From Humidesulfovibrio sp. (lineage in GTDB: Bacteria; Desulfobacterota; Desulfovibrionia; Desulfovibrionales; Desulfovibrionaceae), in the NCBI RefSeq assembly GCF_031082295.1, contig NZ_JAVHLD010000007.1:62001-126000 (forward strand): a stretch of 64,000 nucleotides of DNA, written 5' to 3'. Shown here one piece after another: positions 24,017 to 36,879 of the stretch. The first letter of the stretch is position 1. Each line of letters opens with the position of its first letter. The notes beneath the pieces are model-generated. The model had not been told where the DNA came from. It saw only the letters and a list, made by a program, of their open reading frames with translations, and ran no database searches. A program made the position numbers and the translations under genes.

Positions 24017-24071
24017 GCGCTCCTCATTCTAGATCAGGCGTGTGCACCGGCTTTGGGGGCGCCGGGAACAT

Positions 24072-24104
24072 GGCGCGCCGACGGAACGGGGCCGTCGGCG
24101 CGCC
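24072..24104. repeat. 13-bp perfect inverted repeat (hairpin)
   Basis: GGCGCGCCGACGG and its complement are separated by 7 bases in the intergenic region upstream of the Hpt gene. There is only TTT on one side, so terminator activity is uncertain. It could end minus-strand transcripts that enter from the inserted gene. Confidence 0.55.
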
Positions 24105-24300
24105 TTTCGTGCAGCGCCGGAAGTCGCCACACCCACTGCCCTATCAAAAAGCCTGCCAGGATTGCATGAAGCGTAACAGTTTGAAATTAAACAACGATTA
24201 ATTTTCTGCGGGACGCTGAGGGGAGATATTCCTAAAAATCAGGAGTTGCCGCGCAGGAGCGGCGCTGAAATCCGGTCTCTCGGAAACCCGCGGCGGCTTG

Positions 24301-24464
24301 CCAAAACGAACGAGCGGAGCGCGCCCGGCCTTCCGGTCACGCCCCGCTCGCGCAGGGGATCGCCATGCTGGCGGTGATGTGCGTACCCTATTTCGGCTCG
24401 ATGCGCTCCAGGCCCTTCATCTACGGCCGGAGCGCCTCGGGCAGCACCACGGAGCCGTCGGCCT
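24301..24464. repeat. 164-bp direct repeat, copy A (duplicated serS 3' end)
   Basis: Identical to 26071-26234 except one base (C at 24421, G at 26191). It holds the last 24 codons of serS plus 87 bp downstream. The single difference turns a Tyr codon into a TAG stop in this copy. Left of it the sequence continues as the old intergenic region towards the Hpt gene (24017-24300), which includes an AT-rich stretch at 24170-24240 and no gene. Confidence 0.95.
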
Positions 24465-25947
24465 AGTCTACCTTCTTCGTCGCCTTGGCCATTTCCGCAG
24501 TGGCCTTGGTCGTCTCGCGCAAGGTCTGCATCATCTCCTTCATTACCGTGCCCCACGGGGCCTGGGCGTCTGGATTGATGTTGGAGAACGCGTTGTCCGG
24601 GTTGGAATTCCAGTTGAAGGCCTTCTCCATCTCGTCGATGGACAGCCTGCCGCCGTTGAGATGCACGAACATGCGCCCCTGCCGCAGGGCGTGCCGCCTG
24701 TCCTTGATGCGTTCGGACTGGTCGATGAGCGCCTTGGACATGCGGTAGCAGTAGACCGCGATGAGTACGATGAGTCCGTAGAACGTAAAAGCCTTAATAA
24801 ACTTGCCGATCAGCTCAAACATGGCAATTGTGACAGCGCTACCTACAAGGCGCATAAGGATTGGTTCAATATTGTTTTCGTTAACCTTTTCCTTGAGGTG
24901 AGAATCGTTAATAATACTCGACAGTGTGGCATTAACGTTTTGGTACAATAAATGATTGTTATTTGTACCTGCCTTTATCGTCGTTATGTAAGGTATGGTC
25001 CAATCGTCTGTCAGATTCTCTGAAATAAAGAGTTTTGCGGACACAGCCACCGCCAGAAAGACGGCAAGCATTGCAATACCGAAGAAAAACTTCCCAGAAC
25101 GCTCATAGCCTCTGGCCTTCCTGCTCAGATAGGCCAGCGCCTTCTCGACGAAGAGGTCGGTGACGGCGAGGTTGTAGGCCCGAATGTCCGCCGGGAGGAA
25201 ATCGTGGGAGTGCCTGTGGTGGGCGCCGCCCGCTCCCTGCCCGCTGGCCGAGACCGTGGTCTCGGTCTCCAGCTCTGTCGGGCCGCCTTGCCCCGCTCCC
25301 CCGGATTGTGTTGCTGTCACCGTCGCGGTGGTGGAAGCCGGGGCGCCCCCCTGGGGCGGGGCAGGCGTTCCCTCCCAAAGCTTTGGATTCCAGAAAAGCC
25401 GGTGGACATCATGGCATTTCGTCAGGTGTTCAACCTGATTGAGGACTGCATGCCTGAGGTTGAGCCTGCGGAACACCTTCTTGGTTATGTCATCGTGGTG
25501 GGGGTCACTGTTTGGATACCAGAACTTGAAGAGGCGTCTATTGAGGATGGCCCATCCGTTTTTGTTGTCTTTAGTGAACTGTGTGTCAGGAAACGTATGG
25601 TCAAGGGCTTCCAAGCTCTCTTGTATGTCTTCGCAGCAGGGCTTTGGTCGGCTGCGGCGAGTTGTGCCGTTTTCCCCGGCCGTGCCACCATGGCTCAGGC
25701 CGGACTTGTCGCCGTCCTGGGTAGGTACGGCTGCCTGGTCTTCTGTATGGGGTCGAGTTGCGCCGCCTGCGTCGGGTTCGGGACAGGCGTTTTTCTGTGT
25801 ACCGCCATGGCTCAGGTCGGACTTGTCGCCGTCCTGGGTAGGTGCGGCTGCCTGGTCTTCTGTATGGGATCGAGTTGCGCCGCCTGCGTCGGGTTCGGGA
25901 CAGGCGTTTTCCTGTGTGTGCTTGGCGCTGGAGTCGTCATCTGCCAT
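24463..25947 (-). CDS. unrecognised membrane protein with N-terminal tandem repeat (inserted gene)
   Basis: 494 residues from the ATG at 25947; a TTG at 26010 would add 21. From the N-terminus: a disordered acidic region with two copies of a 39-residue repeat (NACPEPDAGGATR...; about 13-50 and 52-89), a Trp/His/Arg-rich soluble segment (about 110-192), a Gly/Ala/Thr linker, helices near 287-307 and 385-403 around an Asn-rich loop of about 60-80 residues, and a C-terminal cytosolic part (RRHALRQGRMF, then MEKAFNWN) ending in a helix. I cannot name the family. The C-terminal pattern resembles poorly described membrane proteins of accessory regions. The stop codon is formed at the junction with repeat copy A, and the frame continues in phase into the duplicated serS tail. 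Confidence 0.7.
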   Translation of the reverse strand: MADDDSSAKHTQENACPEPDAGGATRSHTEDQAAAPTQDGDKSDLSHGGTQKNACPEPDAGGATRPHTEDQAAVPTQDGDKSGLSHGGTAGENGTTRRSRPKPCCEDIQESLEALDHTFPDTQFTKDNKNGWAILNRRLFKFWYPNSDPHHDDITKKVFRRLNLRHAVLNQVEHLTKCHDVHRLFWNPKLWEGTPAPPQGGAPASTTATVTATQSGGAGQGGPTELETETTVSASGQGAGGAHHRHSHDFLPADIRAYNLAVTDLFVEKALAYLSRKARGYERSGKFFFGIAMLAVFLAVAVSAKLFISENLTDDWTIPYITTIKAGTNNNHLLYQNVNATLSSIINDSHLKEKVNENNIEPILMRLVGSAVTIAMFELIGKFIKAFTFYGLIVLIAVYCYRMSKALIDQSERIKDRRHALRQGRMFVHLNGGRLSIDEMEKAFNWNSNPDNAFSNINPDAQAPWGTVMKEMMQTLRETTKATAEMAKATKKVD

Positions 25948-26070
25948 GTCCGGCAATGCCCCCGTGCTGAAAGGATCAGCAGAGGTATACGCATCTGTAT
26001 TTTTCGTCAAGTATCTTGCGGTATTTTATCCCTTGTGCTCGCCGACTGGCGCTGTCCGCAAATATGGCCC
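24465..26070. mobile_element. inserted segment between duplicated serS ends
   Basis: About 1.6 kb lying between two near-identical serS 3' copies, holding one gene and its upstream region. The base composition of its core (24780-25080) is much more AT-rich than the surroundings. The layout is what a single crossover of a circular molecule carrying the serS end would leave, or a short excisable element with the repeats as att-like sites. No integrase or transposase is present, so the mechanism is inferred. Confidence 0.6.
25688..25921. repeat. 117-bp tandem repeat, two copies
   Basis: Units 25688-25804 and 25805-25921 are nearly identical and in frame (39 codons each). They code for the repeated N-terminal region of the inserted membrane protein. 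Confidence 0.92.
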
Positions 26071-26234
26071 CCAAAACGAACGAGCGGAGCGCGCCCGGCC
26101 TTCCGGTCACGCCCCGCTCGCGCAGGGGATCGCCATGCTGGCGGTGATGTGCGTACCCTATTTCGGCTCGATGCGCTCCAGGCCCTTCATGTACGGCCGG
26201 AGCGCCTCGGGCAGCACCACGGAGCCGTCGGCCT
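26071..26234. repeat. 164-bp direct repeat, copy B (intact serS 3' end)
   Basis: The partner of 24301-24464, at a distance of 1770 bp. This copy belongs to the functional serS gene and its first 87 downstream bases. Confidence 0.95.
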
Positions 26235-27435
26235 GCTGGCCGTTCTCCAGCACCGCCACCAGCGCGCGGCCCACGGCCAGGGCCGAGCCGTTCAGCGTGT
26301 GCAGGTATTCGCTCTTCTTCGCGCCCTTGGCCTTGAAGCGGATGTTCGCCCGGCGCGCCTGGAAGTCCAGGAAATTGGAGCAGGACGAGATCTCCCGGTA
26401 CTTGTTCTGCCCGGGCAGCCAGACCTCGATGTCGTAGGTCTTGGCCGAGGAGAAGCCCAGGTCGCCGCCGCACAGCGCGATGACGCGGTAGTGCAGGCCC
26501 AGGCGCTTCAATATCTTCTCCGCGTGGCTGGTCAAGAGCTCCAGGTCGGCCATGGACCTTTCGGGATGGCTGAAGCGCACCAGCTCGACCTTGTGGAACT
26601 GGTGCTGGCGGATGAGGCCCTTGGTGTCCTTGCCGTAGCTCCCGGCCTCGCTGCGGAAGCAGGGGGTCAGCGCGCAGTAGCCCAGGGGCAGCTGGTCCTC
26701 CTCGAGCACTTCGCCGGAGTGCAGGTTGGTCACCGGCACCTCGGCCGTGGGGATCAGGAAGTACTCCTGGCCCTCGATCTTGAACAGGTCCTCGGCGAAT
26801 TTCGGCAGCTGGCCGGTGCCGGTCATGGCCGCGCGGTTGACCATGAAGGGGGTCAGCACCTCGGTGTAGCCGTGCTCGGCCGCCACATCGAGCATGAACG
26901 CGCCAAGCGCGCGCTCCAGCTTTGCTGCCCAGCCGAAGCTGACGCAGAAGCGCGAGCCGGTGATCTTGCCCGCGCGCTCGAAGTCCAGCCCGCCCAGGGC
27001 CTGGCCCAGCTCCCAATGTTCCTTGGGCTGGAAATTCAGCACAGGCTTTTCGCCCACAACGCGGATCACCGGGTTGTCGTCCTCGGTGCAGCCGTCGGGG
27101 GTGGTCTCGTGGGGGATGTTCGGCACCTTGAGCAGCCAGTCGGACTCCTGCCCCTCGATGACCGCCAGCTCGGCGTCCAGCTCCTTGATGCGCTCGCCCA
27201 TCTTGGACATGGCGGCCATGAGCCCGCTCGCGTCCTGGCCGGAGCGCTTGAGCTTGGCCACCTCGGCCGAGCCCTGGTTGCGCTCGGCCTTCAGGCCCTC
27301 GGCCTCGCGGATCAGCGCGATGCGCGCCTCGTCCAGGCGGGCGAACTCGGCCACGTCCGGCTCGGTTTTGCAGCGCTTGGCCAGGCCCTGGCGCACGGCA
27401 TCCAGATTCTTCTGCACGAACTTCAGATCAAGCAT
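26158..27435 (-). CDS. serS: seryl-tRNA synthetase
   Basis: 425 residues, full length. It charges tRNA-Ser and, where present, tRNA-Sec. The N-terminal coiled-coil tRNA-binding arm (about 30-100) is followed by the class II catalytic core: motif 2 around [29 protein letters not shown] and motif 3 around [19 protein letters not shown]. The C-terminus [18 protein letters not shown] is standard. GGAGACG precedes the ATG. The 3' end is the target of the duplication described above, so a complete gene was retained. Confidence 0.97.
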
Positions 27436-36648: not shown

Positions 36649-36670
36649 GCCATCACGTTCCAGAGTCAGG

Positions 36671-36840
36671 CCGACGCGGACAGGTCTTCCGGCTTCCAGA
36701 TCACTCGGGGGAGACGGCCTTCCCGGCGGGGTGAACCCCGGCAGTGGCTGGGCTGACGCGCCCTGTGTCTCTCCCCGTCCCTGGTTACGGCGGCGGGACC
36801 GCCACGGAATCGCACCGTGTTCCGAGATGTCCGCTCGGTC
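36671..36840 (-). promoter_or_regulatory. cobalamin riboswitch aptamer
   Basis: On the minus strand the conserved B12-riboswitch blocks occur in order: CGGAACACGGTGCGATTCC, GGCGGTCCCGCCGCCGTAACC, AGCCCAGCCACTGCC, CCGGGAAGGC and GAAGCCGGAAGACCTGTCC. The closing P1 stem pairs 36828-36834 with 36676-36682 (GCGGACA/TGTCCGC) and extends outward through CCGA/TCGG. It fits control of cobT by adenosylcobalamin or a related cobamide. Confidence 0.92.
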
Positions 36841-36879
36841 TACTTCCACTTCTCTCTACATTCAACATGCGGGAATCAT

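Follow-up and report, generated by a model that had tools for sequence, protein, structure and literature searches.

One feature of the genome analysed here, from a sulfate-reducing Humidesulfovibrio, is a single gene lying between two nearly identical copies of the tail of serS, and the question is how it came to be there. The locus lies in a stretch of 64,000 nucleotides (the window) from a 134.5-kb contig. Sequence self-comparison bore out the first-pass annotation, which had described two 164-bp copies with a one-base difference around a 1.6-kb segment with one gene. The copies (24301-24464 and 26071-26234, minus strand) are direct repeats of 164 nt each, spaced 1770 bp from start to start, and they are identical at 163 of 164 positions, the sole mismatch being C at 24421 versus G at 26191. 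Each is composed of 77 nt of the serS 3' end and 87 nt of downstream DNA. No random flank pair matched the score of the 164-bp pair (0 of 999). With each fetched stretch compared with itself, over 452,550 bases in all (the window and 388,550 other bases, approximately 13% of the 3.45-Mb assembly), the only repeats of at least 60 bp and at least 90% identity were this pair and a 117-bp tandem repeat within the inserted gene.

The two copies have fared differently. The copy at 26071-26234 contributes its 77 nt of serS end (26158-26234) to an intact gene for seryl-tRNA synthetase, an essential tRNA-charging enzyme (26158-27435, minus strand; Pfam PF00587 and PF02403), so the claim that the copy adjoining serS completes the gene holds. 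The distal copy at 24301-24464 contains the displaced tail (24388-24464), which now lies behind the inserted gene. The nonsense change reported for this copy is present (base 24421 converts a Tyr codon, TAC, to TAG), and since Tyr is kept at this position in all 10 relatives for which serS tails were printed, the distal-copy base is the derived one. The distal copy has no start codon, and the change is probably ordinary decay.

The non-coding part of the repeat had escaped the first-pass annotation, and folding revealed that it forms a strong hairpin with a T-rich tail behind it. The hairpin has a predicted folding energy of -34.1 kcal/mol (z score of -4.19), and none of 200 shuffled sequences was as stable. 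A scan for terminator-like sites returned 6 sites versus 2.8 expected, with both repeat copies among them. We infer that the hairpin next to serS (26081-26120, minus strand) is the intrinsic terminator of that gene and that its second copy (24311-24350, minus strand) is placed to end the transcript of the inserted gene, such that the same terminator would end transcription behind both genes. The T-rich tail of the -34 kcal/mol hairpin reaches the end of the repeat, and it is there that boundary B falls. Elsewhere in the window, a cobalamin riboswitch (36661-36865, minus strand) was the only match at the Rfam gathering level.

The inserted segment (24465-26070, minus strand) is 1606 bp long and carries one gene (24463-26010, minus strand), hereafter the cargo gene, which encodes a predicted membrane protein of a patchily distributed family, 515 amino acids long from the first start or 494 from an alternative ATG at residue 22. 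As had been noted from the sequence, its stop codon (24463-24465) is created at the junction, with the insert supplying the T of TAG and the repeat its AG, in the reading phase of the serS tail. The AT-rich core described earlier is evident as a GC minimum of 35% at 24901-25000 versus a window mean of 66.9%, and the GC content at third codon positions is 0.68 for the cargo gene versus 0.89-0.95 for serS and the response regulator and Hpt genes. From its composition, the cargo gene looks foreign. Members of the cargo family have a common core flanked by two hydrophobic regions, and their ends agree to within a few residues; in a simple hydropathy scan the window protein had two hydrophobic regions and other members up to several more. 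Because the window protein stops at the usual family end, there is no sign that the junction stop codon truncated it. The cargo gene also has an in-frame tandem repeat (25682-25915, minus strand) in which two copies of 39 codons (117 bp) are 95% identical. This repeat is not present as such in aligned relatives and is possibly another recent duplication.

Searches for a function of the cargo protein yielded no usable lead. The Pfam search returned no match above the cut-off, and Moulting_cycle and similar weak matches (17.9 bits, with a cut-off of 22) were taken as chance. PADLOC likewise returned no match for the cargo, on which ground a role as a defence gene was rejected. One of the seven family members weakly matches each of the two-helix membrane families SLATT and DUF4231 (E-values of 0.069 and 0.077), but these matches fall short of any usable threshold, the window protein has none, and neither a structure nor a partner gene supports a SLATT-like membrane effector. 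A search of solved structures with the family profile found no match, and a structure model from the single sequence had a mean pLDDT of 45.6. A promoter scan of the insert found none; a TTGACG/TATACC pair with a 15-nt spacer was spotted by eye inside the first codons of the long cargo reading frame. The insert may be a reverse-transcribed copy or a self-contained expression unit.

Comparison with related genomes dates the arrangement. Within the genus, serS was found in 13 of 15 genomes, our own included. Three of the 12 other serS regions (L111 in G158, L112 in G156 and L113 in G165) are syntenic empty sites, in which a single serS tail and no insert lie next to the Hpt and sigma-54 response regulator genes. 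The remaining nine have different or undetermined neighbours and are not strict empty sites. A second serS tail was seen in none of the 12 regions, although L122 is unaligned over the tail and some contigs end nearby. In the sister species the native leader before the Hpt gene (24017-24300 in the window) directly follows the serS terminator. The region between serS and Hpt also varies among these species, as an extra PAS-like reading frame (L112, 6126-6804) separates the Hpt gene from the leader on the serS side in G156. The three empty sites point to an insertion confined to this lineage, with a long duplication of its target. Moreover, the 77-nt end of serS shares 82-86% identity with its counterparts in the same three sister species, versus 163 of 164 positions between our two copies, which makes the insertion younger than the species split. 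Judged from these comparisons, the insertion is recent and took place in the lineage of this genome, as the first-pass annotation had proposed. An old and fixed locus would be expected to show the same two copies around the same gene in distant relatives, and none of the genomes examined has this arrangement.

The cargo gene had been called an orphan, a description that has to be withdrawn in its strict form: of 287 further Desulfovibrionaceae genomes, 6 contain relatives (7 of 288 counting our own). In a phylum-wide sample of 395 genomes, the gene was found only in our genome and in one of those six, and no relatives were found in phage, plasmid or viral collections; nor was the terminator core found in viral contigs. 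The nearest relatives are 37-46% identical, too distant for microhomology at the junctions to be read against a donor. The neighbours of the cargo genes differ among family members, being serS, a hydrogenase gene, the ends of two convergent genes, and a peroxiredoxin gene. In G034, a gene for a DDE transposase (L123, 7082-8125) directly adjoins the cargo relative.

Two of these other sites can be compared with empty partners, and at neither is there a long duplication. As aligned by BLAST, which defines the gains and losses at all of these junctions (+164, -13 and -18 bp), G135 differs from its close relative G138 by 1496 bp (L125, 7743-9238) that contain the cargo gene alone and replace 13 bp. 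The insert lies at the facing 3' ends of two convergent genes and supplies the stop codons of both. G263 differs from G259 and G264 by 1644 bp that replace 18 bp directly behind a hydrogenase terminator. Since two further species, G265 and G266, also carry the cargo gene behind the same hydrogenase gene, this junction may represent one older event, and it is possible that the empty state of G259 and G264 arose through loss of the gene.

The last site to be considered is that of G136, in which a peroxiredoxin gene and a convergent gene border the cargo relative and for which no empty site was found. Repeats above background are absent from the flanks at five of the seven family loci, and the window and G136 are the two that stand out; a general rule of duplicated terminators around every member was therefore rejected. 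In G136, two terminators in the same orientation (L127, 8314-8357 and 9913-9957) flank the gene and have identical 15-nt arms. The arm occurs at 15 places in the genome with at most one mismatch, and both arms occur together only at the two flanking places. Among 30 hairpins in approximately 417 kb, the flanking pair shares 16 nt, none of 426 other pairs shares more than 11, and a second pair of neighbouring hairpins shares 11 nt; the score of the G136 flanks was reached by 3 of 996 random pairs. The loops of the two terminators differ, however, and the sequence beyond the hairpins is unrelated. The case cannot be polarised, as the genes on either side are not kept together in sister genomes, and the matching terminators are no more than a lead.

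The reading that we favour, and consider moderately probable, is that a foreign fragment of approximately 1.6 kb, carrying a single membrane-protein gene, entered the chromosome immediately behind serS in this lineage without a dedicated recombinase, and that this event itself duplicated 164 bp of the target, comprising the serS tail and terminator. Of the two likeliest routes, the first is capture of the fragment at a staggered break by end joining. Such joining would have to be of a kind other than Ku-dependent, which is not supported given that a search for Ku (PF02735) had no match in any of the 15 genus genomes, while its control detected Ku in 1 of 14 known genomes, that of Bacillus subtilis. 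Alternatively, replication may have switched template at the terminator hairpin and resumed 164 bp upstream. By either route serS would stay complete with its own terminator and the cargo gene would gain one, and thus the insertion could survive selection.

The comparison among sites bears on the choice of mechanism. A transposase is expected to leave a constant duplication and an integrase to use a constant target; the cargo family displays neither. A transposon with a fixed target duplication is not supported, given the gain of 164 bp here, whereas the two sites with empty partners show no duplication and have lost 13 or 18 bp to the insert. Because the junctions vary among family sites, the duplication is not a fixed signature of the cargo, and this speaks for illegitimate or replication-based integration rather than for the action of a site-specific recombinase. 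The matching terminators of G136 would fit a recurrent mechanism instead, but they are only suggestive.

Among the alternatives, an unlikely one is that the 3' end of serS serves as an attachment site, with the 1770-bp unit being a minimal element, or the remnant of a larger one, whose recombinase acted in trans or was lost. Islands driven by integrases at gene 3' ends rebuild the end of the gene and leave the displaced copy at the far side, as is observed here for serS, and 10 tyrosine-integrase matches on other contigs of the same genome could supply the activity in trans. The contig itself, in agreement with the earlier remark that no integrase is present, has no tyrosine integrase (PF00589) over its 134.5 kb, and among the 12 other genomes with serS, the contig that bears serS also encodes one in only 3, at a distance of approximately 29 kb in the nearest case, although several of these contigs are short. 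Unlike such islands, the insert has one gene only and its family uses unrelated sites with no common target; five of the seven loci have no flanking repeat above background, and phage, plasmid and viral collections gave no match. An element driven by an integrase of its own at a gene 3' end is not supported, as PF00589 is absent from the contig and family members lie behind unrelated genes. A literature search for serS as an attachment site found no closely matching paper.

We regard as quite unlikely a Campbell-type homologous integration of a circle that already held the serS tail, or the import of the finished allele from a conspecific. One crossover within 164 bp of homology would leave flanking direct repeats, and the product is formally identical to what is observed. 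The join between cargo and serS tail must still have arisen elsewhere first, however, and a plasmid or phage with either part was not found. Very unlikely is a history in two steps, in which the gene settled behind the serS terminator without duplication and a later tandem duplication and deletion left the second tail. G263 and its relatives, with their family gene behind a hydrogenase terminator and no long duplication, offer a parallel for the first step; the scheme needs two further events, though, and there is no trace of a second cargo copy, while a one-step insertion explains the sequence.

We give just as little credence to a broader proposal that the cargo family is made up of single-gene cassettes that, having no recombinase of their own, insert repeatedly at gene 3' ends, sometimes duplicating the host gene's terminator so that host gene and cargo would each have one, and that the 1770-bp unit can excise as a circle. 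The idea arises because insertion of the single gene is seen at two other sites that have empty partners, the neighbours in G135 take their stop codons from the insert, and the gene in G136 is flanked by the only two full copies of the terminator hairpin found in that genome by the arm search. Finally, an assembly fault at the 164-bp repeat is unlikely, and it is highly improbable that an empty chromosome and a separate molecule (e.g., a 1770-bp circle) were merged there, since despite a repeat of about read length with 120 bp identical between copies, the one-base difference separates the copies, both outer flanks are native, and the contig extends over 134.5 kb.

Returning to integration of a foreign fragment with duplication of its target, such a route had been thought unusual, but insertions of this kind have been described, at least as far as the citing accounts convey. 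Long and variable target duplications were reported in Helicobacter pylori by Nobusato et al. 2000 (cited in PMC1643837, PMC3031569 and PMC4978471), and these accounts give restriction-modification genes as frequent cargo without stating that they are required. As described there, a strain- or species-specific gene lies between long direct repeats of the target and is recognised through an empty site, and no dedicated recombinase is named. At serS, both an empty site in a close relative and long repeats copied from the target were found. Compared with the H. pylori cases as they are presented in those accounts, the cargo here is a putative membrane protein rather than a restriction-modification gene, the duplication covers the tail of a gene and its terminator, and relatives of this cargo have also inserted without a long duplication. 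The duplication was, we infer, made by the insertion event itself, and the serS insertion resembles the long-target-duplication kind already described, with another cargo. A more distant parallel is found in Arabidopsis, a eukaryote, in which non-transposon genes are flanked by direct repeats that are present at the orthologous empty site; a figure in that study proposes that circles form between the repeats and are reinserted by homology (PMC2869330).

The combination of one foreign gene, a long target copy and empty sites makes this locus useful for understanding how naked DNA fragments become part of a genome. Integrases, transposases and conjugation dominate most discussion of gene acquisition. 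Within one family of cargo genes, one site shows a duplication and two others show small replacements, which argues that the outcome is set by the joining event and not by the cargo. Inclusion of the terminator in the duplicated piece may be a simple explanation for why insertions of this kind persist.
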